64,000 bases of DNA. It comes from Crossaster papposus (taxonomy: Eukaryota; Echinodermata; Asteroidea; Velatida; Solasteridae). The stretch lies in contig JBAIAA010000518.1 of assembly GCA_037893245.1 (NCBI GenBank), positions 744,001 through 808,000 on the forward strand, in the 5' to 3' direction. The notes below the pieces were generated by a model. The model was not told the DNA's origin. It worked only from the letters and a program-made list of their open reading frames with translations, and made no database searches. Of the stretch, positions 11,331 to 54,017 are shown in pieces (within the stretch, counting starts at the first letter, position 1; the number at the start of each line of letters is the position of its first letter). Position numbers and translations under genes: made by a program.

Positions 11331-11705
11331 ACCGAGAAATAACTAAACCGCGTCATGGCGTGGTCTACGAGCGCTGTACACCCCGCGCGATTATTATGAC
11401 GTCTTCCAACAAGACTATAGTCTTGGGCTAGAGTTAGATTTGCAATCCCCTGTCTTCACAATGGCAATTAATTATCCAATAAATTCAGCCGAGTGACCTC
11501 TGGACCGCGAGCGCTTAAGCGAATATCGTTTTGGCTAAATCTATACCGTTTAGGATCTTACCGTTTGACCCTCAAGTAATTTGCATACAGTTTCTAAAAA
11601 GCTACATAATTAGTGATACCAAGATTATTATATTAATAATCTTGGTAGCATTTGTCTTGTAGAAAGATTATCCTTCCATTGGCGTAGGTATAATTTTTCT
11701 TTCTT

Positions 11706-11880
11706 CTGCAGGTAGGTTGGTACATAGTGTACATTTATTAGCCAATCAGAAGACATAATGGTGTTGACGTCATCGATGATGTTAGAGTTGTCTGGGTTAG
11801 GGGTCAAGGGTTAGGGGTTGTCCCAGACAACTCTTACACCATCTGTGTTCTGATTGGCTAATGTACCAACCTACCTGCAG
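11706..11880. mobile_element. Fold-back element with TTAGGG-like core, copy 1
   Basis: Ends CTGCAGGTAGGTTGGTACAT and its inverse, then inner inverted blocks 'gccaatcaga' and 'gatggtgttgacgtcatcg'. The core holds GGGTTAGG units. A sister copy is at 49741-49978. This copy sits about 105 bp beyond the stop codon of the profilin gene. Confidence 0.85.
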
Positions 11881-11986
11881 ACAAAAAAATTATCACCTCC
11901 GGGTAGTGGAAGTATATTCTTGTCCGTTTGTTATGGGCCACACTGTATAGACGATTTAAAGAAAGAAAAAACTAATCAGAAATAGA

Positions 11987-12409
11987 TTACAGACCCAAGG
12001 ATTCCAGATAATCAGCGATAACTCCTACACCTTTGTTAAGGTTACCCTGTTGACTGCCCTCTGGGGAGTGGCCAATGACAATGGCCGTTTGGGACGCCTG
12101 CAGAGTGAGGGCGCCATAACCCTTTTTTTTGGCATACACCACTTTGTCATCTTCTTCTCGAAGGAACTGATATTTAACACTTTCTGCTATTATCCCGTTG
12201 GCCATGAATGAAGTAAAGTCCTTGCTTTTGAATGCTTGGGCGATGTTGGCGCCCTCCGTGGCACTTAACTTCAAGGCGTTCGAGTGACCATCGGTCGTCC
12301 ATTTCGCTCCCCCGTCCAGTCCAATGATGCACGCTTTATCAGCGTGGGCGGTACCACTTGCATCTTTCGTCTGGGCGATCAGATTATCGATGTACGAATC
12401 CCACGATCC
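11987..12409 (-). CDS. Secreted profilin 1, exon 2 (profilin domain)
   Basis: 423 nt including TAA. It reads GSWDSYIDNLIAQ at the start and ends IADYLESLGL. Translation begins inside the exon only if a non-ATG codon is assumed; the domain is complete only when read from 12409. Confidence 0.9.
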   Translation of the reverse strand, partial: GSWDSYIDNLIAQTKDASGTAHADKACIIGLDGGAKWTTDGHSNALKLSATEGANIAQAFKSKDFTSFMANGIIAESVKYQFLREEDDKVVYAKKKGYGALTLQASQTAIVIGHSPEGSQQGNLNKGVGVIADYLESLGL

Positions 12410-13609
12410 CTTTATTTTAAAGGGACAAAAAGGACACGACTTAAACTAGTTGTACACAAGAAACCAATGACACAGAAGGCCAAAATATATGACACGATCA
12501 AGCCGAATCAGTCGGATGTCGGCGAATCCCAAAAATGCACTGTATTCTTCGTTCATAACTCGACAACAAAACATCGTACTATCAACATGGGGTTTTCAGT
12601 TTTTAAAACGTACAGATGCCCTCTTTGAAATTACATGAACACTCATTGGTTTGACCGGGGCCGACATCCGACTGATTTCGCTTGATCGTGTCACATATGC
12701 GTCTCCGACTCATTGCTTTGGCGGAACGACATGATCAAATTCACGCATTGAACCAGTTTCAAAAATTCACAAAAAAACCCTACATTTCTTAAGAAATCTT
12801 TATCTTCACTACCCTACCACTGCTATACGTGTATTAGAACTGAACTTATACTAGTGGAGTCATACGAACTGGAAACTCGGGTATTACGTTTTTCCAAACC
12901 CCAGCTTCCGTCTTCGTCCGGCTTGGTTAATGCGCGGCAGTGCGACAATGGTGATGGAGCCGAACGGAGCCCCAGAGCTTGGGTTCGGAAAAACGGCATC
13001 GTCTTTAACGACACGCAATTGACCATTATTTTGCGTGTGGAATTTAAATAATATCTGGTACACCGTACACTGACTTGTTCACACAGCTTGGCACAGTTTA
13101 CATTTAAATTATCCAGACCAAATACACTGTTGCTATATCACGTGATTCGGGGCAAGCTCTTGCATAGTTACGTTAGAGACGCTCAGCACCAATACATTGT
13201 TCACAATGGTTGAGAATGGTACAAAGACACCAGACCATTCTAGAGCCGGGGGTTGCTAGCGTAAGGCTTGCCCCGAATCACGTGATATAGCAACAGTGTC
13301 TTTGGTCTGGAGAATTTAAATGTAAACTGTGTCAAGCTGCGTGAACAAGTCAGTGTACCAGATATTATTCAAATTCCACACGCAAATGGCCAATAGGTAA
13401 AATATGTGCAGGAATTATTAGTTGTACACGAAACAACTTTACGGATAACTTACTCGGCGCGCGGGCTCGTCGCGTTGTGCTTTAACTTCAAGTCGATCAA
13501 GCACACGCTGCATGAGGTCATCCAGGGACTCACGCTGATCTCCCTGGTACCCGCTCACCAAGACATTGACGAACAAGGAAACAATAAGCAAAGACTTCAC
13601 ACCAAACAT
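11987..13609 (-). CDS. Putative secreted profilin 1 (signal peptide + profilin domain)
   Basis: Two coding exons, 13609-13454 and 12409-11987, joined in phase 0 give 192 residues. Residues 1-20 are a typical signal peptide (MFGVKSLL, then a hydrophobic run to VLVSG). Residues 21-52 form a charged spacer ending in the dibasic RR. Residues 53-192 are a complete profilin domain of the normal 140-residue length: WDSYIDNL (the N-terminal Trp/Tyr pair that binds poly-proline), GLDGGAKWTT, FLREED, AIVIGHSPEGSQQGN and a C-terminal helix with Tyr. Profilins normally bind actin and poly-proline ligands in the cytosol; export is inferred from the leader. The donor is GTAAGT and the acceptor is ATAAAG|GG. 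The profilin exon has no Met where profilins usually start, so an upstream exon is required. A separate Met-bearing exon for a cytosolic form remains possible. Confidence 0.75.
12472..12705. repeat. Fold-back element in profilin 1 intron
   Basis: 'gacacgatcaagccgaatca' then 'gtcggatgtcggc' is mirrored by 'gccgacatccgactgattt' then 'gcttgatcgtgtc'. It lies just upstream of the profilin exon acceptor. Confidence 0.75.
13031..13385. mobile_element. Fold-back family E, full copy
   Basis: The left arm from 'ttgcgtgtggaatttaaata' is inverted at the right end (ending 'ttccacacgcaa' at 13385). Both arms carry 'cactgttgctatatcacgtg' or its inverse. The half copy at 8360-8485 belongs here. It occupies the intron between the signal-peptide and profilin exons. 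Confidence 0.85.
13454..13609 (-). CDS. Secreted profilin 1, exon 1 (signal peptide, spacer)
   Basis: The ATG at 13609 opens MFGVKSLL plus a hydrophobic core; cleavage is likely after VSG. The spacer SLDDLMQRVLDRLEVK looks amphipathic and helical, and the exon ends DEPARR before GTAAGT (13453-13448). Just upstream, 'ttttcctcag|ataactgacaag' looks like an acceptor for a 5' UTR exon; the same arrangement precedes the second locus. Confidence 0.78.
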
Positions 13610-13754
13610 CTTGTCAGTTATCTGAGGAAAACATGGAAATAAGTGCATATTTCAATTTTAAAAGATCTAAATATAAATATTTCTCTCAAATATTGCATAA
13701 ATCCAACCTTAATTATAAAACAGCCAAAGGAAGAGACAGAGCCCAATACAAACA

Positions 13755-15945: not shown

Positions 15946-16820
15946 TGGCCACACTGTATACAACTCGATACAGAAAAAGGTGTGGCAACGGAATATACCT
16001 CACGTGAAACAGAATCAAAATGTTCACACGTACGGTCCCGAGATAACCCCATCAGGGCAAGAGAGCCGCAAACAAAACATGGCACTCCAATTTAAAGGGT
16101 ATCCGTTCCAAAATGGGTAACCATTCCAAAAAGGAGGCCGAATTCCAATAGACAATCGTCTGATAAGTGGAATTCGGTCAATCGTGGGGAAACAGAATTA
16201 GACTAAAAACATAAGGATTTCAAACAGTACAAATATAACTCGGGAAATAAAGAATTTAGACACAACTGGCACTGCATTATGTAATCAGACACGTTACCGT
16301 AACATCACCACAGAAGATTGTTCATGCCAAGCTAATGTGTGTGCTTACATGTTTTATGAAACTGGCCCCATATGGGGGACTATATGTACGTACCAAAAAC
16401 ACTGAATCTGTGACTGTAGCGTCGTAGTTTACAAGCTCTTCTGGTTAAAGTGCGAAACGTATAGATGTGCCTCACTAACTTAGGTCAACACTTCTGATGC
16501 GAGTCAACACACAACTTATTAAATATATAATCGGCCTAAATCTACGGTTGAACAACTTTCAAAAGCATTCACCTTGGCCCAGTGACAAACGATCCTTGTT
16601 CAACAATAGGGCCTACAGGTGCGTATAGCATACTCAGTTTGAAAAACATCGCCATGATCCAGTGATTAAACTACTATTGTGAGTTGTGAGGTCACTCTAT
16701 TTATAAAAGTGACGATTATTTCTAAAAATGTAACTGTAAATTCTGTAAAAGAATCTACAGTATTAACTGTACAATGTGCAATGTACATGTACATTATTTT
16801 GAACACCTACGACTCAAATG
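15946..16820. repeat. Segmental duplication, copy 2
   Basis: Partner of 13755-15600. It runs straight through the point where copy 1 holds the 14188-15169 insertion, so it serves as the empty site. Confidence 0.85.
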
Positions 16821-16876
16821 GAGGCGCGGCAGCAAATAACGTTGATATCCAGTGCATTCTATGGTGTTCCAAAGAC

Positions 16877-17187
16877 GACAGATCGCCGTCGCCGTCGACC
16901 GTCGCCGTCGACGTCGACCGTCGCCCGTCGACCGTCGACCGTCGCCGTCGACCGTCGACCGTCGCCGTCGACCGTCGACCGTCGCCGTCGACCGTCGACC
17001 GTCGCCGTCGACCGTCGCCGTCGACCGTCGACCGTCGCCGTCGACCGTCGCCGTCGACCGTCGACCGTCGACCGTCGCCGTCGCCCGTCGACCGTCGGCC
17101 GTCGCCCGTCGACCGTCGCCGTCGCCCGTCGACCGTCGGCCGTCGCCCGTCGACCGTCGCCGTCGCCCGTCGACCGTCGCCTCAAGA
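16877..17187 (+). repeat. GTCGACC/GTCGCC minisatellite, left arm
   Basis: Mixed 6- and 7-bp units (GTCGCC, GTCGACC, GTCGCCC) over 310 bp. All frames are open because no stop codon can arise from these units. Confidence 0.95.
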
Positions 17188-17778
17188 GGGCGCAAGTTAT
17201 TTTGTGTACATGCGGCTCTCCGATCTTGATTTGCGCGCGCTATCTTTTCTGCTGTTTAATATCCTGTTAATTTTAGGTTAAGTAAACAGACTCTTGTTTT
17301 GTAAGTACTTATAAACGCAACTTTAACATGTCAGGTTAACAATATTTGTAATAAAATTGCCACTGCCCCCCCCCCCCCCCCCCCCCATTTTTTTAATATA
17401 TTTGTATTATTAGTGCTGCATGTAGTATACTTTATGTCAGTCCTAACGAAGCTGGATAGAAGGAGTTTCACAGGTTTCTGTACAACTAATTTTGGTGACA
17501 CTTTTTAAAAGACAAGTTAACTTTATTCTTTTGCATACATGTAATTTGTGCCAGTCAAAAAGAAGTTAAAAAACATATCACTTGTATCCCAAAATGTGTG
17601 TATTTATATATTTTTTTTTTTAAAGTGAGTTTGACACGTTTCTGAACAAATTTTTTTTTGTGATTGCTGCTTCTGACCAAAAAAAGGCAAGCTAACCTTT
17701 GATTTTGTGTCAGTCCAAAAGAAGTACACAGGCTGTATAGTATTTGATTGATATTTTATATAGAAGAAGAGTTTGCCT

Positions 17779-17809: not shown

Positions 17810-18573
17810 GCTTAAAAGAGTATCACACGTTTCTATACAACTAAATTTTAAGATTGTTTTTGAAAGAAAAAAAAATCATGTACTTTGTGTCAGTCCAACT
17901 GAGGTTAAAAAGTCTGACGTGGGTTTTATTTCAAACAGTTTGTGTATAGTATTTTCTATATATTTTATACCGAACAAATGTTTATAACTGATACAAGTTT
18001 TACAATACATGTTTATATACAACTCTTTTTGGAAATTGTTGGTTGAAGGAAAAGAAAAAAAAAATTGTTTTTAGAATACGTGTCAGTCCAAAAGAAGTCG
18101 GACACGGGTTTTATCAAACAGTTGGTGTATAGTATTTATTTTATTTTTTGTATACAGAAGAAAAGTTTATAACATTTTGTTTTTAATCTGCAAAAAGGAG
18201 TTTGACACATTTATATACAACTCATTTTTGTTTTACAATATATGTACTTTGTGTCATTTCTAAAGTTTGAAACGGGCTTTGTTTTGCTTGTATTTATTTT
18301 GGATGTTAAAACTGTAGCTCATCGTAACCGTACTACCGGTAAGTTAGGCCAGCGTGGCCGGCAATAATGCATGTAGTCGATCCGCTTACGTTACGTTGAG
18401 TGTCGACCCACAAACAATTCGCTTTAGGAGGTCTCTCAACAGAGGAATTTTCGCCACAAAGTATATGTAAAGAAGGCGTGCAGGCAAGACGTACCTCAGG
18501 AGTCTTTGCCAAAATCGTTGTTACGTGAAGGGCGCCCCCATAAGTAACAAAACAAAAGCAGACTAAACAGCGC

Positions 18574-19017
18574 CCCCGGCGAGGGCGACGTCGAGGGCGA
18601 GGTCGACGGTCGACGGTCGACGGGCGACGGGCGACGGGCGACGGGCGACGGTCGACGGCGACGGTCGACGGGCGACGGCGACGGTCGACGGGCGACGGCG
18701 ACGGGCGACGGTCGACGGTCGACGGCGACGGTCGACGGTCGACGTCGACGGCGAGGTCGACGTCGACGTCGACGTCGACGGCGACGTCGACGGCGAGGTC
18801 GACGGCGACGGCGAGGTCGACGGCGACGCTTAGGCAGCGTCGCCGTCGCCGTCGCCCCTGAATATGTTTGTTTGTGCACAAGTCTATGGGCTAAGGGCGA
18901 CGTCGACGGCGACGGCGATATTAGCGTCGCCGTCGCCGTCGGCGTCGACGTCGCCTCTTCAGGGGCGACGTCGACGGCGACGTCGACGGCGACGGCGAGG
19001 TCGACGGCGACGGCGAT
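18574..19017 (-). repeat. GTCGAC/GTCGCC minisatellite, right arm
   Basis: Inverse of the left arm. It is interrupted at 18858-18897 by unrelated sequence that includes 'tttgtgcacaagtctatgg', the inverse of a stretch in the first monomer of the tandem array at 25452. Confidence 0.95.
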
Positions 19018-19339
19018 CTGTCGTCTTTGGAACACCATAGCATTCCGCGTTAAAAACAACAACACACCCTTATTTAAATAACTGACCGTATTCAAGGTTT
19101 GCACCTTTTTTTTCTTTCATGCTACTTCGCTTCGCTCATACGCATGAAAAATAGTTTCACACCCTTGAACAAACGGAACAGAGACATTATTTGAATCTCA
19201 AATATTTTATTAGCATGGGATTGGGGTTAGGCTCAGAGTGAGAGTACACTTGACTTAATTCATTCACAATTAATATTGTATGTAATTAGTTAATTAACAG
19301 TTATTTAGTATTAATAAATTGTTAATAATTAGTATTATA

Positions 19340-20946: not shown

Positions 20947-23220
20947 TCAATGAAATGTATCAGCATTATTGAAATTAATATAAGCAGCTCCTACTTTGCT
21001 TTTGAATATACTGGAACCTATGAGAGAATTCTTGTTTCGTCCTAACGTGAGATTATTGTATCCTGACACTGAGATGAAGGCTTTAATACCCGCCTTGTAA
21101 GATGACCATAGTAAAGGCCAAAAGGGGGAAGAGGGCCACCAAGGAAAGACAAGTACTCCTTTGCCTTTACACATTAACAAGTGACGCAGAACACTAGGAA
21201 TAAGAAGTACTGGCGGAACTAAAAAACAGTTTTCGTTGGTCCAATTTTGTGAAAAAGCATCGACTCCAGAGGATCCAGGGTTCCAAAATCTAGAAAAGAA
21301 TTTAGGTAATTTGGCGTTATAATAGGTTGCGAAACAATCTACTGTAAATGGACCCCATAGATCGTTAATGGTGACGAAGAATTCTTCAGAAATTGACCAG
21401 TCATCCAAGTCAACTAGTTTACTGATGAAATCGGCTTGTTCATTCGCCGTTCTGGGAATCCACTGTACTTCTAATCTAATGTTATTATGAAGACAAATTG
21501 AAAATATATCTAAAGAAATCTTATGTAATTCTGGATTCATACTACCGACCTCTACAATGTGTGCTGCCGATTGGCTGTCTGTAAATAATTTAAGTTTAGA
21601 GTTTGATATTAGCGGCAAGAATGACATAAGGGCAAAAGAGAATGTGTTTAATTCTCGCCAAGTGGAGCTTTTGAGGGATTCGTTTTCTGTCCAATGCTTG
21701 TGAGCTACATGTACTTCGTTACAAATAATGGACCCAGCTCCTTTAGCACTGGCATCGCAGCACATGATCTTGTTGACTACATAATTCTGGAAAATATAGC
21801 GAACATTTAAGTTGGCGACATGAGTTTCCCAAAAATTGATTTCTGAATTACAAAACTCGTCTAATGTGATCTCTTGGTCTTCGTGTATACCACGAGCAAT
21901 GGCCATTTGGGAGTGACGAGTCATGAGCCTGGAAATGTTTCCTACTACTGGACCCAACGATATTATTTGGCCAACAAAGGAATGTAATTTCCGTATAGGA
22001 AGTAATTGTGTTAACTCGGACACTGTGCTTAATATTTTCTGTATACGTCTACCTAGTACCTGTAATGTTCCAGCTACGGTATCCCATTTCAAACCTAGCC
22101 ATTCACAACTTGTAGATGGAACCCAATTACTCTTCTGTATATTGTATACAAATCCAGCTTTGATCAAATCTGATTTAATTTGTTCAGCTACTTTCTGGGC
22201 ATGCTTTAAATTAGTAGAGTGATCAGAGGAAATGTTAGGTATAACACAAATTCCGTCATCCAGATAAACAGCAATTGAAATGCCGTTCATCCTCCAATGA
22301 GTTACAAGCGGTTTCAAGATCTTGGTGAAAATATATGGGGCACAAGAAAGACCAAATGGGAGAACATTAAACTCAAAGTACCTTATCACATTGTCAAAAT
22401 TCCATGAAAAACCAAGGTAATGTTGAAAATCGTTATCAATATCAATATGATGGTATCCGGACTTCAAATCAAAATTAATTAAATGGGCATTTTTAACCAT
22501 AAATTGAAGAGCTATTTTCCAATCGTCGAGTTTAAAGTGAGTCTTTTCAACAAATGCATTTAATCTACTCAAATCTAAAATTAATCTTCTCTTCCCTGAT
22601 GATTGAAAGGATACAGATAAGGGACTCACAATATACGACGGCTCTAGTTTTTCTGTAATTCTGCCCGAATGCAATAATTCTAATATAGCTTCGGTTACGA
22701 AAATGTGCTCTTGGAAAGCTGATCTATTATTTTTGTGAAACATTCTGGGAGGGATTTCTAGAAATGGTATTCTATAACCTTGATCTACTATTGAAAGGAT
22801 AAATTTAGAAGTACCAATATTTTCCCAAAATGTTCTGTGTTCTTTAATTCTTCCTTTGACCGACACAAGATCTGAAGAAAGATCATAAGGAACATCATGG
22901 TTATAATTGCATGATACCTGTAAGACGTCATCAAATTTATCTCGTAGCTGAACACGAATTGGTGAAGAATCACATTGAGGGGGTTGTACTTGAGCCTGGT
23001 CTTGCTGGGATGACCGAGGTATGTGCTGCGGGTGAGACGATTGGCATTTGCTGCTGGATGGTAGGGATTTGCCATGGTGTGCTTGAGTAGTAATTGGTGT
23101 ATGACGATCTGGCTGGATTATTTGCCCTTGCTCTACCCCCGAATGTGAAATGCTGGCGTCTCTGGAGAGGACATTCACGAGCCCAGTGTCCTGGTGCCTT
23201 GCAGGTATAGCAGAAATCAT
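20947..23220 (-). CDS. Reverse transcriptase / RNase H polyprotein (YR retroelement)
   Basis: A 757-codon open frame. The low-complexity N-terminal 100 residues overlap gag. The RT domain follows, with LILDLSRLNAF, the INFDLKSGYHHIDI block, the VLPFGLSCAPYIFTKI block and catalytic AVYLDDG. Next is an RNase H-like region (MCCDASAKGAGSI, LKLFTDSQSAAH, WIPRTANEQADFISK) and a C-terminal segment with TVDCFATYYNAKLP, common in DIRS-type polyproteins. The enzyme copies element RNA into DNA. The frame is unbroken here although the adjoining recombinase is dead. Host-gene origin is excluded by domain order. Confidence 0.88.
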   Translation of the reverse strand: MISAIPARHQDTGLVNVLSRDASISHSGVEQGQIIQPDRHTPITTQAHHGKSLPSSSKCQSSHPQHIPRSSQQDQAQVQPPQCDSSPIRVQLRDKFDDVLQVSCNYNHDVPYDLSSDLVSVKGRIKEHRTFWENIGTSKFILSIVDQGYRIPFLEIPPRMFHKNNRSAFQEHIFVTEAILELLHSGRITEKLEPSYIVSPLSVSFQSSGKRRLILDLSRLNAFVEKTHFKLDDWKIALQFMVKNAHLINFDLKSGYHHIDIDNDFQHYLGFSWNFDNVIRYFEFNVLPFGLSCAPYIFTKILKPLVTHWRMNGISIAVYLDDGICVIPNISSDHSTNLKHAQKVAEQIKSDLIKAGFVYNIQKSNWVPSTSCEWLGLKWDTVAGTLQVLGRRIQKILSTVSELTQLLPIRKLHSFVGQIISLGPVVGNISRLMTRHSQMAIARGIHEDQEITLDEFCNSEINFWETHVANLNVRYIFQNYVVNKIMCCDASAKGAGSIICNEVHVAHKHWTENESLKSSTWRELNTFSFALMSFLPLISNSKLKLFTDSQSAAHIVEVGSMNPELHKISLDIFSICLHNNIRLEVQWIPRTANEQADFISKLVDLDDWSISEEFFVTINDLWGPFTVDCFATYYNAKLPKFFSRFWNPGSSGVDAFSQNWTNENCFLVPPVLLIPSVLRHLLMCKGKGVLVFPWWPSSPFWPLLWSSYKAGIKAFISVSGYNNLTLGRNKNSLIGSSIFKSKVGAAYINFNNADTFH

Positions 23221-23401
23221 TTGGCAAGCCTGTGTGAATTATAAACAAAATATACAGCAAGCAAAATGGCTCGTATATAAGGGCGGGCGGGTGGGTGGGA
23301 AAGCAGGGACCAGCAAGGTAAGACAGTTGTGTACTCGGCGGTGAGCTAACCTGAACTGACATATAGAAAGGTAGTACGTCTCCAGGAAAGTTACGCATCA
23401 A
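22970..23401 (-). pseudogene. gag remnant with CCHC zinc knuckle
   Basis: Open frame of 143 codons carrying one nucleocapsid-type knuckle, CYTCKAPGHWAREC (C-x2-C-x4-H-x4-C), followed by a Gly/Arg- and Gln/Pro-rich tail. Gag of this class packages element RNA. The usual upstream capsid part is missing, since stops precede it, so it is truncated. It overlaps the RT frame by about 250 bp in another frame. Confidence 0.7.
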
Positions 23402-27141: not shown

Positions 27142-28263
27142 TTAGACAGCATTGCTGAGAACCGATTGTGCAAATTCTTTTGCCACCGAATTGACGGTTG
27201 TCGGTTTATGATAAAATCGACCAAACGTGGACGCTCTCGTCCAACCGGCTGTTTTCATGATTGTGTCTATTGGTAGACCCTTGTTTGCGGCCGCTGAAGT
27301 ACATGCAGAACGGACACTGTGTCCTTTAAACACTGATGTATCAATGCCTGCTTCATGAAGTGATAGTTTAAGCCATCTCGATATGGTTGAGGCAGCAACC
27401 TCCGAATGCGGTGATGCGTAACTTAAAAACAGTTTTGTTTTGTTTTGTCGCCATTGCTTAGTTCGATTTACATAGGCTGCTAAAGTTCTGATGACGCACA
27501 ATGTTTCGTCAGTGGGATAAGCCGACAAGACAATAAGCGATTGTTTCTTACCAGTCTGGGCAGTCTTGGTCGGTTCTGTTATCCTAATTTGAACCGAGTC
27601 CAGTCCAATGGACATATTGTCCGTTGCAAACAAAGCCAACGTTTGGGCCCTTTGACCCGTTGTGATAGCGCACAAACATACGAGTTTGTAGGTGAGGCTT
27701 TTAATAGAGATTGACGAAACTGGCTCTAACGTAGATATGTACTTGAGCAAAATGTTTACATCCCATGTGTAAGAATATCGAGGTGTCTGTGGTCTTAGGT
27801 TAGATATTCCTTTCATAAATTTAGTTACCAACAGATGGCTGCCGAACTTTTGTTCCGCGCTGTCAGAGAGGCAGAGTAGAGCAGACAGAGCGCTCCTGGT
27901 CGTATTTATGGTGCTGTATTTTGCACCATTTTTAAACAGTTCTGTCAAGAAATTAAGAGCTTGGCCTATAGTTGGTCGAATCGAATGTACCGATCGTTTA
28001 CTGCAGAAACGTAGCCACCTTGATAAGGCCACGAAGTACTGTTTCTTTGTGGCTGGTCTCCAGGCTTCAATAATGATGTCGGCAGTGTCTTGTGAAAGCC
28101 CTCTTGAGCCAAGAGATTTCCGGATAAAAGTCCGGCACAGAGAGTCAGTCGACCCGCTAGAGGGTGACGTTCCCCTGGTCGATGCGGTAGGCACAACAGG
28201 TCGTCTGTCCGAGGTAGTATGATTGGTCGTTTTACGAGAAGACGCAAAAGTCTCGGAAACCAC
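27142..28263 (-). CDS. DIRS tyrosine recombinase
   Basis: An open frame of 373 codons to the stop at 27142, with no ATG at its apparent start, so the true start is probably internal or by splicing. An N-terminal SAM-like domain (AWRPATKKQYFVALSRWLRF) precedes the catalytic part: Arg in TTGQRAQTL, GHSVRSACTSAA (H-x-x-R), AGWTRAS and the nucleophile Tyr in GRFYHK. It integrates the circular cDNA without target duplication. It overlaps the RNase H frame by about 300 bp. Unbroken here. Confidence 0.9.
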   Translation of the reverse strand: MVSETFASSRKTTNHTTSDRRPVVPTASTRGTSPSSGSTDSLCRTFIRKSLGSRGLSQDTADIIIEAWRPATKKQYFVALSRWLRFCSKRSVHSIRPTIGQALNFLTELFKNGAKYSTINTTRSALSALLCLSDSAEQKFGSHLLVTKFMKGISNLRPQTPRYSYTWDVNILLKYISTLEPVSSISIKSLTYKLVCLCAITTGQRAQTLALFATDNMSIGLDSVQIRITEPTKTAQTGKKQSLIVLSAYPTDETLCVIRTLAAYVNRTKQWRQNKTKLFLSYASPHSEVAASTISRWLKLSLHEAGIDTSVFKGHSVRSACTSAAANKGLPIDTIMKTAGWTRASTFGRFYHKPTTVNSVAKEFAQSVLSNAV

Positions 28264-29180
28264 GTTTGCCTTGTCCAGTGCGGAAAGATCAGCACGATCG
28301 TTACTCCTTCGGACTCGGCCTTTTGCAGAACTCTGTTAATAAGGGCAAAAGGAGAAAAACAATAAGGAAAAAGGTTTTTCCACTGAATTGTAAATGCGTC
28401 ATATGACGCTGCCTCGGGGTCTGGGTGCCATGACACAAAAGGTTTTATCTGATAATTTAGTCTGGAGGCAAACATATCAATTGTTGGCTCAACATTAAAA
28501 TAAGATAGCACCAGCTGGAATATTTTCGAGCTTAGCTTCCATTCCAAACTGTCACTAAATGAACGTGACAAAAAATCGGCATCGGTATTAGATTTACCAG
28601 GAATATGATATGCTACTGGCCATATTTTATTTTGTAAACACCAAGTCCACAGTTGTCTCGATATTTTGTTAAGTTCTTTTGACTTGCAACCGCCCATATG
28701 ATTAAGATAGGCGGCAGCGGTTGTGTTATCAGTTTTCACTGTCACGGCTTTGCCGCGTATATGATGCACAAAGGATTTCATTGCATACAAAATTGCCAAA
28801 AGTTCTAAGCAGTTGATGTGCATATTTGACTCATCGACGTGCCATCTGCAGTTTGTTCGTAAATTCAAAGTTGGGCACGACGCTCCCCAGCCGCTGTTGG
28901 AGGCGTCGGTTTTTATCTCCACATAGGTCTTTTGTGATTTGTTAATTGTTCTAAAAGAACTAGACAAATTTTCGATCCACCATTTTAAGTCGCATATAGC
29001 TTGTGGCGGCAAAGTCATATGGGCCTTAAAATTACCCTGGTTTGTTTTTAGTGCCTCGTGTTTGGCCGTTTCTAGACTTCTATAATACAACGGTCCTAGA
29101 GGCACTGCGGGAAAACAAGATACTAATTTGCCAATAACCCGTGACACTAACTGAATAGTAGGGTTCCGCTGTTGCATCAA
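27966..29180 (-). CDS. DIRS RT thumb / RNase H segment
   Basis: An open frame of 404 codons continuing the polyprotein after a frame break near 29180-29187. The RNase H core shows VEIKTDASNSGWGAS, a Glu in NCLELLAI, and VKTDNTTAAAYLN; then HIPGKSNTDADFLSR and the DIRS-typical TIDMFASRLNYQ. The last ~90 residues run antiparallel to nothing useful and overlap the recombinase frame. Confidence 0.85.
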   Translation of the reverse strand: MMQQRNPTIQLVSRVIGKLVSCFPAVPLGPLYYRSLETAKHEALKTNQGNFKAHMTLPPQAICDLKWWIENLSSSFRTINKSQKTYVEIKTDASNSGWGASCPTLNLRTNCRWHVDESNMHINCLELLAILYAMKSFVHHIRGKAVTVKTDNTTAAAYLNHMGGCKSKELNKISRQLWTWCLQNKIWPVAYHIPGKSNTDADFLSRSFSDSLEWKLSSKIFQLVLSYFNVEPTIDMFASRLNYQIKPFVSWHPDPEAASYDAFTIQWKNLFPYCFSPFALINRVLQKAESEGVTIVLIFPHWTRQTWFPRLLRLLVKRPIILPRTDDLLCLPHRPGERHPLAGRLTLCAGLLSGNLLAQEGFHKTLPTSLLKPGDQPQRNSTSWPYQGGYVSAVNDRYIRFDQL

Positions 29181-29186
29181 ATAAGT

Positions 29187-30048
29187 TCAATTCTCAGCGA
29201 CACCGTGTATTTTACGAGATGGAAGGCGTACTGACATTTCCACCGTATTTATTTCAAAACCCAAATACTCCAATTTCTGAGCTGGAATTTTGCACGACTT
29301 TTTGTCATTAATAACAAACCCAAGGGATGTCAAGAGATTGCACGTTGCCTGTACATTCCTGAGACAATCATCCCTGGAATCTCCGACTAAAAGGGAGTCG
29401 TCAATATAGGTAGTGGACACATGACCCATATTACGTAACTTGGCCGTAACGGGTTTCATTACCTTGGTAAATATTCTAGGCGCACTTGTAAGGCCAAAAC
29501 ATAGACATGTAAATTGCCAAAGTTTACCCTGCCACATAAAAGAAAAAAAAAAACGTTCGGTGCTCACTGGCTATTGGTATAGTAAAATACGCATCTTTAA
29601 GATCAATCGATGCTAAAAAACAATTGCGACGTAAAAGCGTCAATGCGCCTTCGAAAGTTTCCATTTTAAAGTGATGGAATTTGACAAATTGGTTCAATTC
29701 TTTTAGGTTGATGATTGGTCGCATTGATCCGTCCTTTTTAGGACGAAGGAAAATATTCGAAAGAAAAGTAGAATTTGTATGGCCAATTGCTGGCTCGATT
29801 GCGCCCTTGTCCAACATGGCGCTTACTTCGGCATCTATAAGCCTTGATTCCGACTCGGACAACACAATGGGTGTCGGAGTGCGTGTTTGAATAGGGGTTT
29901 CTCTAAACTCAATGTGACAATGGGAAACTGTATCGAGTACCCAAGCATCAGTTGTTATGGCCATCCATTGTGATATAAAATATCGTAGCCTTCCCGCTAC
30001 AGGTAATGATGGAGAAACACAGTGGTACTTACAAGTACTTACATTCAC
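29187..30048 (-). pseudogene. DIRS reverse transcriptase, frameshifted
   Basis: Two overlapping frames: 30048-29524 carries FLRPKKDGSMRPIINLKELN and SIDLKDAYFTIPI, and 29567-29187 carries CFGLTSAPRIFTKV and catalytic TTYIDDSLL. The break falls at an A run (plus-strand 29541-29552), which suggests slippage or mutation. A second break separates this from the RNase H frame near 29185. Together they make one RT. Confidence 0.85.
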
Positions 30049-30080
30049 CGCTTCCTTGCGTTTTGTCTCACGCAGATCAT

Positions 30081-31299
30081 CTATCTTGGCTTTACGCTTG
30101 ACCCCTCCGACAGCTGAGGTGGTCCTGACCAGCGAGTTCGGCTTTGATACCGACGACCTCTGGTGCGATATTGAAATTGGCCGCGTTGATACCGGCCACG
30201 GTACGAATAGTCCCCCGACGGGTACGGGTGTGACATGCCGCGAAAGGGACCACGTTTGCGGCTACGGTTCGATATATCTGAACCATGCATTTTAGAGCCA
30301 AGTTTGTTAGTTTCTTGAATGGCTTTGCACGCCTGCACGAGGTCGTCGCCAAACAAGTAGTTCGTTCTTAATTCGGTTTGCGAGGAACATAAAGCCGCAT
30401 ATTTCGGGCTTAGGTCGGGGCGTAGCAAATCACGCCTTCGATAGTTCAGGAATGCATTGCCAGAGCCTAGCATAGCTGTGGCATCTACAAGCATCTTTAT
30501 GAGCTCAGCCAAATCAAGATTCGCCTTGTTTTTGGAATTTCTTGCATTCAGCAACTTATCAATGGTCATTGTGATGGCGGTGGCACTGTGCATGATGTAC
30601 TTTTGTACTTTCTGCCATTTTACGTCCCGTGCACGGGTCGCTGGCTTTAAAAAAGCCCAGATCTCGGGATTTACTTTGGTTATGGTCATGTTCTTACAAT
30701 TTTTCGGTTTGTCGTATTGCTTGACTTTTTGTTCAAGCTTTTCAGGAAGAATTTTTCCCTTTATCAAAGCATCGATTGTGCCAGCAAGCTGTTCATTAAT
30801 TGCTGGTCCAACTCTGTCGTCACCCTCAACGAGAGTGGCCATTTCAGTAAGCAAATCATCACTCTCAGTGTTTAGTAAATGATCAATATCGCCATCACAC
30901 ATACTATCGCCCGTTTCCGGTGCGCAAAATGAAACTTGTTCGCCCCTTTCGGGTACGAAGCAATTGCCTCCATGATTATCATCATCTGATATTTCGCCTT
31001 CGTCGCTAATTCGGGCCCGAGCGCAACAGATCGCTAGGTTGTGCAGTGGGCATGGCATTAAGCGCTATGGCATTGGTCAGAGACGCGACAGTTTTCTGTA
31101 AACTAGATACGGCTTCGCGCAGATCAGTATCATTCGCAGCGTGCGAGGTGCTAGGGTGCCCAGACGACGGTGCGTTGGACATTGCTGCAAAGCTTAAGTT
31201 TTTTCGCTTGCATTTAAGTTCGTTTCCCAGTCGCGGGCTTAGTGTATTCCTGAGTAGGTTGATACACAGTTTGCGCGAGGCCCGATAAGTCTTCGCCAA
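30081..31299 (-). pseudogene. DIRS gag-like ORF, one frame break
   Basis: 31299-31006 and 31058-30081 overlap in different frames and together make a Gag-like protein of about 400 residues: an acidic N-terminal part (EGEISDDDNHGG), a helical middle (NPEIWAFLKPATRARDVKW) and an Arg/Gly/Tyr-rich basic tail (RGRYQRGQFQYRTRGRRYQ) suited to RNA binding. No zinc knuckle, as is common in DIRS-1 Gag. Confidence 0.75.
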
Positions 31300-35604: not shown

Positions 35605-38600
35605 GTACGTGTTGAGTCCATCTAAAGTCCTCACAAGTCCTAACAAGTCCTCACACTTAATGAATCAAGATGTGAGACGGAGGGAACCCCCCCCCCCTTT
35701 CTTTGTTGTGGTCATTGTGCTTGCGGAATTCTTTTTAGGTTGTTAGGGGGCGTTAGGCCAACATTCGTCTAGAGAGTGGATATGTATTGGGGGGAGGGGG
35801 GGGGGGGGGTGCGAGGGGAGGGGGGGGGGGGGGGGGTGCGGGGGGGGGGGGGGGGGGGGGGGTCCTAAGGGGAGAGTCCATCGGTCCCATATCGTGCTGC
35901 CATCTTCCCAAGTCGAGCTTTTAATTCCTTAAAGGTAGGATACGATACACATTGGTAAATTGCTTAAATTGTCACGAATAGGTGGATTTTTTAAATGTAT
36001 TTATTATTTTTATTTATTTATTATTATTATTATAAATTTTTTTTTAATTTTTTTTTTTAGTTTTCTTTTTTTGGGGGGGGGGATTTTATAGTAAATATCG
36101 TTTACCTGACCTGTCCAAAGTTTTACAATCATGGAGGCTGAGAAAAGCCAGAACAAAACGGCGTTTTGTTTTCAGTCGGCGTTGGGCAGTTAAGTTGTTT
36201 CTTATCGGCGATCTGGCGATCGATCGTGAATTATTTTAAATACAATTCTTTTTTCAGAATAATTACACAGAGTATCTATAGTGCAATCAATTTCTGCTGG
36301 ATGCCTACAATCCATGTTTACTTTCAAATAAGTAAGATATTTCTTAATATTGAAATTTCGGAAGTAACATTTGTCGATACCTGTAAATGGTGTACCCTAT
36401 ACTCCATTGCTCCTGTCATGGGCCTCACAATTGCAAAGATTGGGTTGCAACCGTTGTAGTTGCAATTCGAGTCACTCCACGTTATTCAAACAGTGTGAGC
36501 AATGCATTGCCCCTTTTAGTCAGGTTCATAATGTACATATTGAAAGTTTCGTTCACTTCTTTTGTAGATTTGCTAAACTATACATTTTTGGAAACGTTAA
36601 GATATACTCGACAGGAATACCAATGTTTACATTTGTTTTTAGGTTCATTTGAGAAAAAAATGGGGTGCCACACATTAAAGGTCCATTTTTTCAATGCCCC
36701 ATATCTCTGGAAGTATAAGTCCGATTGGGTTCAAACTTGGTATGAAGGTATGGCGGGATGTGTTATAGATATAAATTGAAGTGACATAATGATGACGTCA
36801 TCGTGTGATTTGTTATGATTTTGTTTCATTTTTGGACCTTTAAGCCATATCTCATCAACAGAACATAATAAATTCAACATTATTTTGTTATATGTTTATC
36901 GGGACATCGGGTCATAGACATATGCACACAATTGTGAAAAAATGTGTGACATCATCATAACGTCATCAAAATGCTATTCAAAAAATCCAAGATGGCCGCC
37001 ATAAAGAACCTAAGAGCAAATGTAAACACTGGTTTTCATTTTAAGTATATTCTAACGTTTCCAAAAATGTATAGTTTAGCAAATCTACACAAAAATTGAA
37101 CGAAAAAACATAAGAAACCTGCCTATTTGTTGGTCATAAGTACATGTAATATTGCAATAGTCCTGTGTACTGGGGCCAATTTGTATAAAACATGTAAGCA
37201 CAACAATTTGCTTAGCATGAAAATGCTTTTGGGCGAAAAACAAGGTTACAAACAAAATTTTCAGTTGATGTTTATTGTTTGTGACTGATATTCAACTGGT
37301 TTGAGCTTAGCATGAAAAACACATGGCATTTTGGCTGGTAACCTGGGGCCAATTTCACAGAGCTGCTAAGCAAACAAAAATGCTTAGCATGAACATTTGT
37401 TATTGGGAAAAACAATGTTACAGATCAAATTTTCACGTGGTGTTTATTGTTTGTTGTTGGTATTCAGCTGTTTTTTTTTGCTTAGCATGAAAAACACATG
37501 GCATTTTGGCTAGTAACCAGTTTTATTGAGCACGCTTTTTTTGTGTGCTGAGCAAATTTGTGTGCTTAGCAGCTCTATGAAATTGGCCCCTGTTTTTACT
37601 TAGCAAACAGAGAAAATGATTGTCGCGATCGCCGTCCCGCGATTCGTGCCGACAATCATTATTTACTTTCAAAGTATGTGTTATAGATTATTTATGGAAA
37701 AAGATTCCTGTGAAGTTCGGTTCAGTTCTTTTTTCCTTGTTCCCGGGTTCTCAATTTCAACTCTTTTGATTATGACAGGTTGATGTTGGTAATGACAGCA
37801 TAGGGCAGACTAAACGGGCCAAGATCTGCGCATGCACCGTTGTCATAACGACCCTGATCCTGGTAGCCGGCACATTGGGCGCAATCACCCTTGTCCTCCG
37901 GTTGCAGCAGGGAACCGGCGAGGCTTCCAGTGTCGTCTCCAAGGAGCCCCTTCTTAGCAACAACTCCCCTCTGGAGGAGGAGCCTATCTACGACCCCCCA
38001 ATCAAGATCGATGATGGCGGACTCTGGTTACCCAAGAATCCCGAGACCCCCGACCTCGTGGCCGTAGACGGCCAGGGAACGGTTGCCCTTTCCTCCAGCC
38101 CCAAACCGGACATCGATGGCATCGACATCGACCCCGAAGGAAACCCAGTGGTCGAGAACACCGTGACCCCAGACCTCGTGACCCCCGACCTCGTGGCCGT
38201 AGACGGCCAGGGAACGGTTGCCCTATCCTCCAGCCCCAAACCGGACACCGATGGCATCGATGCCGATCCCGAAGGAAACCCCATCTTCCAAGCGTCTTCC
38301 TCTTCATCTTCATCCGCCCCAGATCGCTCTTACCAAGGAAGGAACTATATCAGTTCCTCTTTCCCATACGACGGTTTCTACATGCGCGGCGGTACGGGTG
38401 ACCTACCACCATCTCTCCAAGAAGATTCGTCATCGGCAGAACCATCAGTAGGTTCTGGAGACATGGACAGTGATCTTGAAAGTTCCGGCGAAAACACAGT
38501 GACCCCAGACCTCGTGACCCCCGACCTCGTGGCCGTAGACGGCCAGGGAACGGTTGCCCTATCCTCCAGCCCCAAACCGGACACCGATGGCATCGATGCC

Positions 38601-39212
38601 GATCCCGAAGGAAACCCCATCTTCCAAGCGTCTTCCTCTTCATCTTCATCCGCCCCAGATCGCTCTTACCAAGGAAGGAACTATACCAGTTCCTCTTTCC
38701 CATACGACGGTTTCTACATGCGCGGCGAAACGGGTGACCCACCACCATCTCACAGCGAAGAGCCCTTATCGGCAGAACCGTCAGTAGTTTCTGGAAACAT
38801 GGACAGTGATCTTAAAAGTTCCGGCGAGAACACCGTGACCCCAAACCTCGTGACCCCCGACCCCGTGGCCGTAGACGGCCAGGGAACGGTTGCCCTATCC
38901 TCCAGCCCCAAACCGGACACCGATGGCATCGATGCCGATCCCGAAGGAGTTCCCATCTTCCAAGCCTCGTCCTCTTCCTCTGACGGCGGGTATTCATCCG
39001 ATCCAGAACAATCTTTCCCATACGACGGTTTTTACATGCGCGGCGGGGCGGTACGTGACCTACCACCATCTCTCCAAGACGATCCGTCATCGGCAGAACC
39101 ATCAGTACCTTCAGGAGACATGGACACTGATCTTGAAAGTTCCGGCGAGCCCCAGGATGTCCCGTCGGATTCTAACAGTTTATCCTTAAGCGACTTTTTC
39201 AGTTTCTCGTAA
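35491..39212 (+). CDS. Single-pass membrane protein with 112-residue repeats
   Basis: Two coding exons, 35491-35604 and 37779-39212, join in phase 0 (GAG|GTACGT donor, TATGACAG acceptor) to give 515 residues. Exon 1 has no signal peptide. Residues about 54-75 are a hydrophobic segment (ICACTVVITTLILVAGTLGA) preceded by TKRAK, which suggests a type II orientation with the long C-terminal part outside. That part is acidic and rich in Ser, Pro, Asp and Gly, and is built from a 112-residue repeat carrying DLVAVDGQGTVALSSSPKPD, a Ser run and FPYDGFYMRG. I do not recognise the family. A mucin-like or matrix-interacting surface protein is possible. Start choice: the first ATG (35491) is followed by a second Met 6 codons later, and either could serve. 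Confidence 0.72.
35790..35865. repeat. Poly-G tract
   Basis: Almost pure G for about 70 bp in the intron of the membrane-protein gene, next to an 'atatcgtgct' element end (35889-35898). Confidence 0.9.
35929..36403 (+). mobile_element. TTAA-MITE family B, decayed copy
   Basis: TTAA at 35929-35932 with AAGGTAGGATACGATACAC; the interior keeps 'atcatggaggctgagaaaag' and 'ttttcagtcggcg', and it ends near 'aatggtgtaccctat'. The right TTAA is lost. A T-rich stretch expands the copy at 36000-36070. Confidence 0.7.
36545..37100. mobile_element. Fold-back element in membrane-protein intron
   Basis: 'tagatttgctaaactataca' and 'tttttggaaacgtta' on the left are inverted at 37050-37090. The interior holds paired 'tgacatca' and 'tgatgacgtcat' words. 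Open frames here are not genes. Confidence 0.7.
37172..37344. repeat. Family C element, truncated
   Basis: Starts 'ggggccaatttgtataaaac' and stops at the next, complete copy. Confidence 0.7.
37345..37590. mobile_element. Family C fold-back MITE, full copy
   Basis: Ends GGGGCCAATTTCACAGAGCT and AGCTCTATGAAATTGGCCCC, with TTAGCATGAA/TTTGCTTAGCA inner inverted words. About 245 bp, non-coding. Other copies: 43622-43864, 52967-53218. Confidence 0.88.
37610..37690. repeat. Family B fragment before exon 2
   Basis: 'tgtcgcgatcgccgtcccgc' and 'cgacaatcattatttacttt' belong to family B. It ends about 90 bp upstream of the exon 2 acceptor. Confidence 0.55.
37779..39212 (+). CDS. Repeat membrane protein, exon 2
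   Basis: 477 codons plus TAA, open from the acceptor at 37778. It reads VDVGNDSIGQTKRAK, the transmembrane segment, then the repeats. Strongly GC-rich compared with the neighbouring introns, with a codon pattern typical of coding DNA. Confidence 0.82.
   Translation, partial: VDVGNDSIGQTKRAKICACTVVITTLILVAGTLGAITLVLRLQQGTGEASSVVSKEPLLSNNSPLEEEPIYDPPIKIDDGGLWLPKNPETPDLVAVDGQGTVALSSSPKPDIDGIDIDPEGNPVVENTVTPDLVTPDLVAVDGQGTVALSSSPKPDTDGIDADPEGNPIFQASSSSSSSAPDRSYQGRNYISSSFPYDGFYMRGGTGDLPPSLQEDSSSAEPSVGSGDMDSDLESSGENTVTPDLVTPDLVAVDGQGTVALSSSPKPDTDGIDADPEGNPIFQASSSSSSSAPDRSYQGRNYTSSSFPYDGFYMRGETGDPPPSHSEEPLSAEPSVVSGNMDSDLKSSGENTVTPNLVTPDPVAVDGQGTVALSSSPKPDTDGIDADPEGVPIFQASSSSSDGGYSSDPEQSFPYDGFYMRGGAVRDLPPSLQDDPSSAEPSVPSGDMDTDLESSGEPQDVPSDSNSLSLSDFFSFS
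38154..39150 (+). repeat. 336-bp coding tandem repeats
   Basis: Units begin at 38154, 38490 and 38826, exactly 336 bp (112 codons) apart. A partial unit precedes them (38041-38153) and the last is shortened. Units 1 and 2 are nearly identical at DNA level, so the array has been homogenised recently. Confidence 0.92.
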
Positions 39213-48388: not shown

Positions 48389-48705
48389 AATGTATTCATT
48401 TATTTATGTATTCGTTCGTTGGTTCGTTTGTTCGTTAGTTAGTTTGTTCGTTCGTTCATCTCGTCCATCTCGTTCATTTTGTTCATTTCATTCAGGCTTC
48501 ATGTATTCATTTATTTATTTATTCGTTCGTTGGTTCGTTTGTTCGTTGGTTTGTTTGTTCGTCCGTTCGTCCGTTCGTCCGTTCGTTAGTTAGTTAATTT
48601 GTTCGTTCGTTCGTTCGTTCGTTCATCCCGTTCAACTCGTTCATTTTGTTCATTTCATTCAGACTTCATGTATTCATTTGTTTATTCCGTGCATTTGTTT
48701 CAATA
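48389..48705 (+). repeat. TTCG-type microsatellite
   Basis: Runs of TTCG/TTTG/GTTA with two longer repeats of 'atgtattcatttattta'. The region would be in a 5' UTR intron of the second profilin gene. Confidence 0.9.
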
Positions 48706-48718
48706 GATAACCGACAAG

Positions 48719-48871
48719 ATGTTTGGAGTGAATTCTTTGCTTCTGTTTTTCTTGTTCATCAATGTCTTGGTGAACGGGTACGAGGAGAAGCAGCGCGGCT
48801 TCGGTGAGGCCCCCGTGGATATTCGCGCTCCACTCGAACAATCACCAGGCTTCAAACAAGTCCGCCAAGTC
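48719..48871 (+). CDS. Secreted profilin 2, exon 1
   Basis: 51 codons from the ATG, ending GFKQVRQV before GTAAGT (48872). 'tttcaatag|ataaccgacaag' directly upstream matches the first locus ('cctcag|ataactgacaag'), so a conserved 5' UTR acceptor precedes the ATG in both. Confidence 0.78.
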
Positions 48872-50494
48872 GTAAGTCATAATAGGCAGTGTCCGATCTA
48901 AATGGCTAAGGCTTAAAACCACACGAGTGTTTATAAAGGGCATGCAGCAGCTATCGTAAACTCGTGCGTAATGTTGAGCCGTAGTCAATTATTTCCGACA
49001 CGGCGTGAGCCGTAAACCAGCCTCTTTCGTGCTAAGTATATAGGCCGTGTCCGAAACGGGTGTCTAGAGCTACAGCTACGGCTATTGTCTGCGTCGGCCA
49101 TTGTGTAGCGCTGTCCGAAATGCCGTCTAGAGCTACAGCTACGGCTACAACGTCACAAAAATCTCGCCGTAAAAGAAGTTGTCTAGCTCAGGCAAAAGAA
49201 AATGCAAATTTTCGTTTATTTTTCAATGATAGTGCATTGATTTAAAACTAACGGATCGACAAATACGTCAATATCATCAGGTATTTCTACTGGCTCAAAC
49301 AAACATTGCGTATTACATTTACCTGACGATAATTGTTGTAAATTCTTACATCGTAATTTTGCAAACACTAATTCAAGCATCGCTTGGGGGCGCAATAACT
49401 AGCCGTAGACTCTATCGTAGCCACGTCCGAAAGTAGAAAAATCTTGATGTACCGTAGCAATTTGCACTCGAGCTGGAGCGCAATGATACAAAAACAACTT
49501 TTAACAAGGTGTAAAGGCTTGCGAATGCAGCCACCCCCCCCCCCCCCCTCCCCTAAATGTATTCGTATACAGTTCATGGTCTTCCTTCCAAATTCGATCG
49601 GAAAAGAAACTAACAATATTTTGAAAAAAGCACGGACAACACAACTTTAATTTGTAATTAACATTATAGGTCCATTCGAAAGTTCAAAAAATGAAAATGT
49701 TAGCTCACTTTCAATTTAACATGGCCGGCGATAATTTTTTCTGCAGGTAGGTTGGTACATTAGCGAATCAGAACACAGATGGTGTTGACGTCATCGATGA
49801 TGTTAGAGTCATCTGGGACAACTCTAACCCTAACCCTAACCCTAACCCTAACCCTAACCTTAACTCTAACCCCTAACCCCTGTCAGAGCCCAGACAACTT
49901 GAGCATTATCGATGACGTCAACACCATCTGTGTTCTGATTGGCTAATAAATGTACACTATGTACCAACCTACCTGCAGAAAAAAATTATCGCTGGCCGAC
50001 ACGTGAATAAAGCCCACGAGATTATAAGCACATTTTCCTGCATTTTTATATCCTTTTCTTCTTCTTCGAAGTCATCCTGGGATTCGTACATCGATAATCT
50101 GATCGCCCAGTCTAAGGACGCAAATGGTACCCCGCACGTCGACAAAGCGTGCATCATTGGACTGGACGGGGGAGCAAAATGGACGACCGACGGTCACCCT
50201 AACGCCCTGAAGTTGAGCGCGACCGAAAGGACCAGCATCGCCGGGCCGTTCAAGAACAGAAACTTCACCCCGTTCATGAACGACGGGATCACAGCGGAAG
50301 GAACCACCTACCGTTTCCTTCGAGAAGAAGATGATATTAAAGTGTATGCCAAACTGCGAGGGCATGGCGCTCTCAGTCTGCATAAGTCTAAGACGGCCAT
50401 TGTCATAGCTCACTGTCCCGAAGGCAGCCAGCAGGGGAATGCCAACAAGGCCGTGCGAGTTATCGCCGAGTACCTGATATCACATAACCTATAA
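48719..50494 (+). CDS. Putative secreted profilin 2 (signal peptide + profilin domain)
   Basis: Exons 48719-48871 and 50072-50494 join in phase 0 to give 191 residues. Residues 1-20 are a signal peptide nearly matching that of the 11987-13609 gene (MFGVNSLL, FINVLVNG). Residues 21-51 are a spacer (EEKQRGFGEAPVDIR and on) unlike that of the first gene and without a dibasic end. Residues 52-191 are a full 140-residue profilin domain: SSWDSYIDNLIAQ, GLDGGAKWTT, FLREEDD, AIVIAHCPEGSQQGN. By hand count it is about 70% identical to the first copy, and both are free of stops, which argues for maintained function. Donor GTAAGT; acceptor TTCTTCTTCGAAG. The profilin exon has no Met at its start. Actin and poly-proline binding is expected from the fold; secretion is inferred. 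Confidence 0.77.
48960..49440. repeat. Fold-back element in profilin 2 intron
   Basis: 'gtgtctagagctacagctac' and 'gccgtctagagctacagcta' are direct repeats; 'cgtgtccgaaa' and 'acgtccgaaag' bound inverted pieces. A C run at 49533-49551 follows. Confidence 0.55.
49741..49978. mobile_element. Fold-back element with telomere-like core, copy 2
   Basis: Ends CTGCAGGTAGGTTGGTACAT and its inverse; the core is (CCCTAA)n with about seven units. Sister of 11706-11880. It ends 93 bp before the profilin 2 domain exon. Confidence 0.88.
50072..50494 (+). CDS. Secreted profilin 2, exon 2
   Basis: 423 nt including TAA. The domain begins SSWDSYID at the splice site and ends YLISHNL. A pyrimidine-rich tract (50049-50067) precedes the acceptor. 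Confidence 0.9.
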   Translation, partial: SSWDSYIDNLIAQSKDANGTPHVDKACIIGLDGGAKWTTDGHPNALKLSATERTSIAGPFKNRNFTPFMNDGITAEGTTYRFLREEDDIKVYAKLRGHGALSLHKSKTAIVIAHCPEGSQQGNANKAVRVIAEYLISHNL

Positions 50495-50654
50495 ACATTT
50501 CCATTCAATCTAGTACCAGGCTGATTCGTCTGTTTAAATCGTTTATAATATAATTATAATATAGGTTTTCGCGGTCAGTTTACCAGCTCTGTATTTTAAC
50601 GTACGTAGCTAGATATAGCAGTAATTTGTTTGGGTTAACCATTATATCGAGATG

Positions 50655-53930: not shown

Positions 53931-54017
53931 TTATGCACAACGCCCCGTTTTTTATGCATATCGGCCTTGTTTATTCATGTCCGATCCTCCTGCTGTCCCT
54001 TTGCATCGTAGCCGAGA

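Follow-up and report, generated by a model that had tools for sequence, protein, structure and literature searches.

Profilin is the textbook cytosolic actin-handling protein and normally starts Met-(Ser/Ala)-Trp. Its presence outside mammalian cells is usually explained by release that involves no dedicated export signal, and both mammalian extracellular profilin-1 and Toxoplasma profilin are ordinary profilins released from cells. One study reports that extracellular profilin-1 acts as a ligand for vascular smooth muscle cells (PMC2963617), another describes the profilin of Toxoplasma as an antigen for TLR11/12 (PMC6411707), a trophoblast study uses the phrase 'secreted profilin' (PMC5562808), and a sea-urchin profilin is cited as expressed in coelomocytes responding to injury (PMC9471872). 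Here we describe a different arrangement in a 64,000-nucleotide stretch of the genome of the sea star Crossaster papposus (assembly GCA_037893245.1, contig JBAIAA010000518.1, positions 744,001 to 808,000 of the forward strand; referred to as the window, whose numbering is used below). A gene within it, locus 1, lacks the Met-(Ser/Ala)-Trp start of a cytosolic profilin and instead carries a predicted targeting sequence on a separate upstream exon. We consider it probable that locus 1 belongs to an asteroid family of secreted profilins and encodes an exported protein composed of a spacer and a profilin domain.

Predicted splicing of a putative signal peptide to a complete profilin domain

Locus 1 lies on the minus strand and comprises the following parts:
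13610..13621, minus strand: 5′ leader of the signal exon (ATAACTGACAAG), 12 nt (sequence; paralogue leaders; similarity to locus 2)
13550..13609, minus strand: predicted signal peptide, 20 codons, cleavage after residue 19 or 20 (translation; signal scoring; identity to locus 2)
13454..13549, minus strand: spacer, 32 codons, predicted helix, ending in ARR (translation; structure model of the Patiria homologue P0085)
12410..13453, minus strand: phase-0 intron, 1,044 bp, GTAAGT...AG (sequence; family comparison)
11987..12409, minus strand: profilin domain exon, 140 codons plus stop (translation; PF00235 match)

The signal exon (13609-13454, minus strand) holds 52 codons, translated as MFGVKSLLIVSLFVNVLVSGYQGDQRESLDDLMQRVLDRLEVKAQRDEPARR, and ends at a GTAAGT donor. 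The domain exon opens ..aaataaag|GGA in phase 0 and matches Pfam PF00235 over residues 2-139 (E 1.7e-29, 102.9 bits, gathering cut-off 25). An in-frame stop lies upstream of the domain, with no Met between this stop and the domain and none before the domain's Trp. Re-reading the sequence, we arrived at the same coordinates, phases, donor and Met-less domain start as an earlier note on this DNA. An acceptor AG (13623-13622, minus strand) directly precedes the leader, ..cctcag|ATAACTGACAAG ATG, and an acceptor 12 nt before the ATG is also kept at other family loci. The leader itself is the same at paralogues and differs by one base at locus 2, a second gene of this kind in the window, and nucleotide similarity between the two loci starts exactly at the signal-exon acceptor. 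Conservation of an acceptor ahead of the ATG suggests that a putative non-coding exon 1 comes first, which would probably make the signal exon the second one.

The signal was scored by a simple method, a von Heijne-type matrix. Locus 1 reached 5.6, with cleavage after residue 19, and locus 2 reached 3.8, as compared to 3.7 or less for 112 ordinary profilins of 138-142 aa; peak N-terminal hydropathy was 2.84 and 3.00, respectively, and at most 1.58 in the ordinary set. Under this simple scoring, locus 1 has the hydrophobic core and acceptable -3,-1 site of a cleavable signal. Two further marks point the same way. One or two cysteines are found in 18/18 signal- or anchor-type profilin domains tabulated (a set that includes two bacterial-labelled proteins and two with weak signals) versus 17/107 ordinary 140-aa profilins, and an N-F-[ST] sequon at domain position 64 occurs in locus 2 and in two homologous proteins of the sea star Patiria miniata (see below) versus 3/107 ordinary profilins, the locus 2 domain having two N-glycosylation sequons in total (positions 18 and 64). 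The sequences compared are related and not independent, making these marks rather than tests.

The N-terminus could alternatively be an uncleaved signal anchor, in which case the product would be a type II membrane protein whose helical stalk presents profilin to the lumen or the outside. The spacer might act as such a stalk, given the helix at residues 24-50 in the structure model of P0085, and an anchor-like layout is found elsewhere, in P0144, where an internal hydrophobic stretch precedes the profilin. However, only ~14 residues make up the hydrophobic run of locus 1, and the small residues after it fit the -3,-1 rule, with the cut scored after residue 19, and we regard an anchor as unlikely. 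As a gene structure, then, the exported profilin proposed in the earlier note is well supported by the paralogues, the Patiria proteins, the signal score and the low cysteine count, whereas we infer secretion itself as probable and its purpose only tentatively.

A multicopy family with homologues in Patiria

The second gene in the window, locus 2, is on the opposite strand:
48707..48871, plus strand: signal exon, 12-nt leader plus 51 codons, MFGVNSLLLFFLFINVLVNGYEEKQR...KQVRQV (sequence; family comparison)
48872..50071, plus strand: phase-0 intron, GTAAGT...AG (sequence; family comparison)
50072..50494, plus strand: profilin exon, 140 codons plus stop, 72% identity to locus 1 (translation; Pfam; alignment)

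The spacer of locus 2 is very different from that of locus 1. From the genome that contains the window (1.02 Gb, 1,841 contigs), 13 matching pieces were retrieved with the profilin domain as query, namely nine signal-exon loci (one of which, C118, is split in two), two ordinary Met-Ser-Trp profilin copies (C195 and C955; nonsynonymous divergence, dN, 0 and synonymous divergence, dS, 0.011) and a divergent copy, C1186, for which the 7 kb of adjoining sequence examined gave no signal-exon match. The 52-aa signal exon as query, in a search that scored only the best candidates, gave at least nine matches at E <= 1, every one adjoining a profilin exon. The GTAAGT donor and phase-0 acceptor are present in 9/9 signal-profilin loci and the domain frame is intact in 8/9, the broken copy (C118:280047-281571) having a shortened spacer and a profilin frame disrupted from domain codon 32 on. 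By these comparisons, locus 1 is a member of a multigene asteroid family. A chance upstream open reading frame is ruled out by the 9/9 pairing together with the Patiria homologues, and a signal exon common to other gene families by the location of all of the at least nine matches, among the best candidates scored, at profilin loci.

In protein databases, we considered the best 120 of 545 matches for the domain query and the best 120 of 564 for the joined locus-1 query. Among those listed, the best full-length match was P0085, a 'profilin-like' protein of Patiria miniata (191 aa) with 74% identity to the joined locus-1 protein along its full length (100%) and an N-terminus, MFGLKSLLLFSLFINVLVSGYQGEQRNSLEDLMRRVLDRLEAQRHERARQSA, in which the signal and spacer of locus 1 are clearly recognisable. 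A second Patiria miniata protein, P0124 (isoform X1), has a similar signal-spacer-profilin architecture. Both are clear homologues of locus 1, each chain containing the same signal, spacer and profilin domain, and differ from it in that their spacers end in RQ-SA or RQ-NP and that the position-64 sequon is present. In a 52-row tree, locus 2 grouped with both Patiria exported forms (99/96), while the ordinary profilin of the Crossaster genome grouped with Patiria and Acanthaster profilins (96/91) and the Asterias profilin was placed elsewhere. Taken by itself, this one short tree would suggest a valvatid-like asteroid as the source of the genome. One alignment in the analysis (A1) includes a locus 2 row that starts one codon early, within the intron. 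An NCBIfam search returned nothing useful, and a RasGAP_C match to P0085 residues 20-69 (17.1 bits, cut-off 26) was taken as chance.

The name of P0124 implies another isoform, and one might envisage that both forms are made, an alternative first exon yielding a cytosolic profilin besides the form that begins with the signal exon. At locus 1, however, the domain has no Met of its own and an in-frame stop ahead of it; alignment of 13700-11901 against 48601-50600 (loci 1 and 2) recovers the signal exon and the domain only, with neither alignable introns nor a conserved alternative exon; and the genome contains a separate ordinary profilin gene. We hold dual products to be rather improbable.

The family varies between haplotypes. 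Contig C1092 (187,027 bases), of which bases 1-115,500 save about 500 were compared, is colinear with the window in blocks at 85-99.9% identity (search threshold 85%) and is probably the other haplotype. It carries four signal-profilin loci (35.6-36.9, 53.2-54.5, 62.3-64.0 and 92.2-94.0 kb) versus two in the window. In 100-bp bins, locus 1 is 98-100% identical to C1092 copy c between 14.2 and ~12.8 kb and 99-100% identical to copy b between ~12.7 and 11.3 kb, placing a paralogue switch inside its intron near 12.7-12.8 kb. A c-like 5′ part followed by a b-like 3′ part is the layout expected had unequal recombination within the intron linked copy c's signal exon with copy b's domain; the direction is unpolarised, and a collapsed assembly offers an alternative account. 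The same intron carries a palindromic insert at ~13030-13386 (93-nt arms, 96% complementary and 108 nt apart, plus 34-nt arms), across which almost nothing of C1092 copies a and b aligns.

Selection and the spacer junction

The profilin domain is under purifying selection between loci 1 and 2 (dN 0.19, dS 1.12, dN/dS 0.17; bootstrap 5-95% 0.09-0.25, maximum 0.40 of 199). The whole signal exon yields a dN/dS of 1.24 for the same pair. Its first 20 codons are identical at 52/60 nt (dN 0.16, dS 0.12), and a dS ~10 times lower than that of the domain suggests that the signal has undergone gene conversion or is constrained at the nucleotide level. For copies of the locus-1 type, dN/dS of the signal exon ranges from 0.08 to 0.58 where computable.

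Given that the locus 1 spacer ends in RR, the earlier note had proposed that a furin-like protease could release the bare domain outside the cell. The furin consensus is R-X-[K/R]-R, with Arg at P4. The locus 1 spacer ends E-P-A-R-R|G, with Pro at P4, and across the nine loci the junction reads ARR (5/9), ARQ (2/9) or VRQV (2/9), in addition to RQ-SA and RQ-NP in Patiria. No conserved R-X-[K/R]-R thus precedes the mature domain, and furin release is unsupported because the junction is not conserved and P4 Arg is absent. A broader version of this idea has the spacer peptide as the functional product, or a propeptide-controlled profilin freed by a convertase. Besides the dibasic RR at locus 1, the similarity of the helical spacer across locus 1, the copies close to it and the two Patiria proteins would fit such a function. 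Yet, on top of the junction data, the spacer of locus 2 differs, and the signal-exon dN/dS of 1.24 between loci 1 and 2 argues against a spacer product, leaving this version with a slim chance. That the family consists of dead or dying duplicates without function is very unlikely since, despite the broken frame of C118 and dN/dS values near 0.6-0.9 in some recent pairs, domain frames are intact in 8/9 loci, the domain dN/dS between loci 1 and 2 is 0.17 and intact relatives exist in Patiria.

Profilins with signal-peptide-like N-termini in other phyla

The earlier note knew of no exported profilin in an animal. No animal profilin with a signal peptide was reported among the literature matches listed, which were often the top rows only (for instance 20 of 335 or 25 of 1,807) and in which subscription papers are poorly covered, and the word 'profilin' is absent from the main text of a sea-star adhesive-footprint paper (PMC9382459). 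Sequence databases, however, already contain signal-peptide-like profilins of one crinoid, two mussel species and one annelid. These emerged from a set of 35 profilins longer than 142 aa, itself a lower bound (best 120 of 545 and of 564; 31 proteins from 217 candidates), of which 25 were scored (all but P0003, P0036, P0067, P0119, P0123, P0133, P0136, P0137, P0149 and P0150). Met is absent from the domain start in 12/25, and ten of these twelve score at least 3.8: the two Patiria proteins, those of Antedon mediterranea, Mytilus coruscus, Mytilus galloprovincialis and Owenia fusiformis, P0090, P0147, and the bacterial-labelled P0040 and P0088; P0143 and P0144 fall under 3.8. The remaining 13 retain their own start, and the three among them that score above 3.5 (P0071, P0138, P0139) resemble 5′ read-through.

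Database entries named profilin therefore seem to include similar exported proteins from several phyla. Those of Antedon mediterranea (P0140), Mytilus coruscus (P0129), Mytilus galloprovincialis (P0135) and Owenia fusiformis (P0096) share with locus 1 an export-like N-terminus before the profilin and have one Cys in the domain, but their signals are unrelated by eye to that of locus 1 and there is no common spacer. P0135 consists of a signal peptide, a segment with several cysteines and a profilin, and looks like a secreted multi-part protein. The eight asteroid signal-profilin genes did not form one clade in the unconstrained tree; approximately unbiased (AU) tests on 139 columns rejected neither a single asteroid clade (p 0.35), nor one including the crinoid (p 0.23), nor one of all 12 named animal rows (p 0.21).

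The bacterial-labelled profilin records (P0040, P0088, L044-L046) may reflect contamination or gene transfer; P0040 has an export-like N-terminus and sits on a 1.2-Mb contig. Leaving aside P0040, a bacterial origin of the family was rejected, as two Calothrix profilins group with that of the scallop Argopecten (95/81) and a Hydrocoleum match spans 633 bases for 124 residues, as for an intron-bearing contaminant.

Candidate ligand-binding residues and proposed mode of action

The structure model of P0085 has the profilin fold. The aromatic residues W3, Y6, W37 and Y134, which we take to form the polyproline pocket, occur in both loci of the window and in 8/8 aligned asteroid genes. Of the lysines K79/K94/K95/K96, presumably tied to G-actin binding (after yeast mutants), all four are kept in locus 1 and one in locus 2. 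With the groove kept and these lysines lost in most copies, our best guess is a proline-rich binding partner outside the cell.

We propose that a non-coding first exon would be spliced to the short exon encoding the signal and helical spacer, and this in turn, in phase 0, to the single exon with the complete profilin domain. The product would enter the endoplasmic reticulum and lose its signal by a cut near VLVS|G or VSG|Y, leaving a ~172-aa spacer-profilin for export, whether into body fluid, mucus or a granule. Binding of the polyproline groove to a proline-rich extracellular or surface partner would be the likeliest mode of action, with actin binding (e.g., of actin spilled from wounded cells) optional and perhaps retained by locus 1. 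Its role might lie in wounding, defence or reproduction, and the injury-linked expression of sea-urchin profilin makes wounding the natural first place to look.

Several observations weigh against an exported profilin of this kind. The signal score of locus 2 is just above that of the best ordinary profilin, hydropathy being the better discriminator. Any sequon at all occurs in 17/107 ordinary profilins, and locus 1 itself has no sequon and keeps the four lysines, such that both marks rest on its paralogues; all four lysines are also retained in the signal-peptide-like profilins of Mytilus galloprovincialis and Owenia. Conservation of the aromatics may reflect the fold instead of ligand binding. 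As to selection, the first 20 signal-exon codons give no purifying selection between loci 1 and 2, one family copy (C118) is broken, and domain dN/dS of ~0.4-0.9 among recent locus-1-type copies indicates weaker constraint on these. Finally, no Acanthaster or Asterias protein with the locus-1 signal was among the matches listed (best 120 of 564), and the signal-profilin family may therefore be narrow.

Looking beyond sea stars, a bolder reading, which we hold to be less likely than not, is that several phyla (sea stars, crinoids, mussels and annelids), perhaps repeatedly, made an exported profilin, one that shed free cysteines, often lost some of the conserved lysines and kept the polyproline groove, and that in sea stars this became a recombining, copy-number-variable family resembling secreted families of defence or reproduction. 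If so, extracellular profilin would be an evolved product and not just leakage from dead cells. Dedicated export genes, selected and expanded, would provide a direct genetic handle on extracellular profilin function, and Patiria, a laboratory sea star, offers a test system for gene removal.

Other features of the window

Outside the two profilin loci, or between their exons, the window contains:
11697-11889 (just 3′ of locus 1) and 49735-49984 (in the locus-2 intron): inverted-repeat elements that have in common a CTGCAGGTAGGTTGGTACAT end and a core rich in CCTAACCC
16794-17281 and 18333-19116: repeat arrays with several open frames on both strands, DRRPS/VDGRR-like units being abundant
20947-23238 and 27142-30261, minus strand: retroelement frames with reverse transcriptase (PF00078; the first above the cut-off, the second below) and tyrosine recombinase (PF00589), in what we take to be a DIRS-like arrangement
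37776-39212, plus strand: open frame of 478 aa that includes a hydrophobic stretch as well as repeats of Ser/Asp/Pro-rich units; a DUF1439 match is below cut-off only
54012-62651, plus strand: exons of a kinesin motor gene; the three frames scanned contain PF00225 pieces, of which the first is under the curated cut-off

Comparison with known profilins

Mammalian extracellular profilin-1 and soluble Toxoplasma profilin resemble the proposed product of locus 1 in acting outside their own cell, but differ in that the accessible portions of the respective papers report no signal peptide (PMC2963617, PMC6411707). The ordinary animal profilin (PF00235; 140 aa in echinoderms) is like locus 1 over the whole domain (67-81% identity, best 120 of 545), in its four pocket aromatics and, judging from the P0085 model, in its fold. 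It has Met-Ser where the family has a signal and spacer, and more cysteines. Compared with it, the locus 1 family is multicopy with haplotype variation, and the conserved lysines are lost in most of its copies, though not in locus 1.
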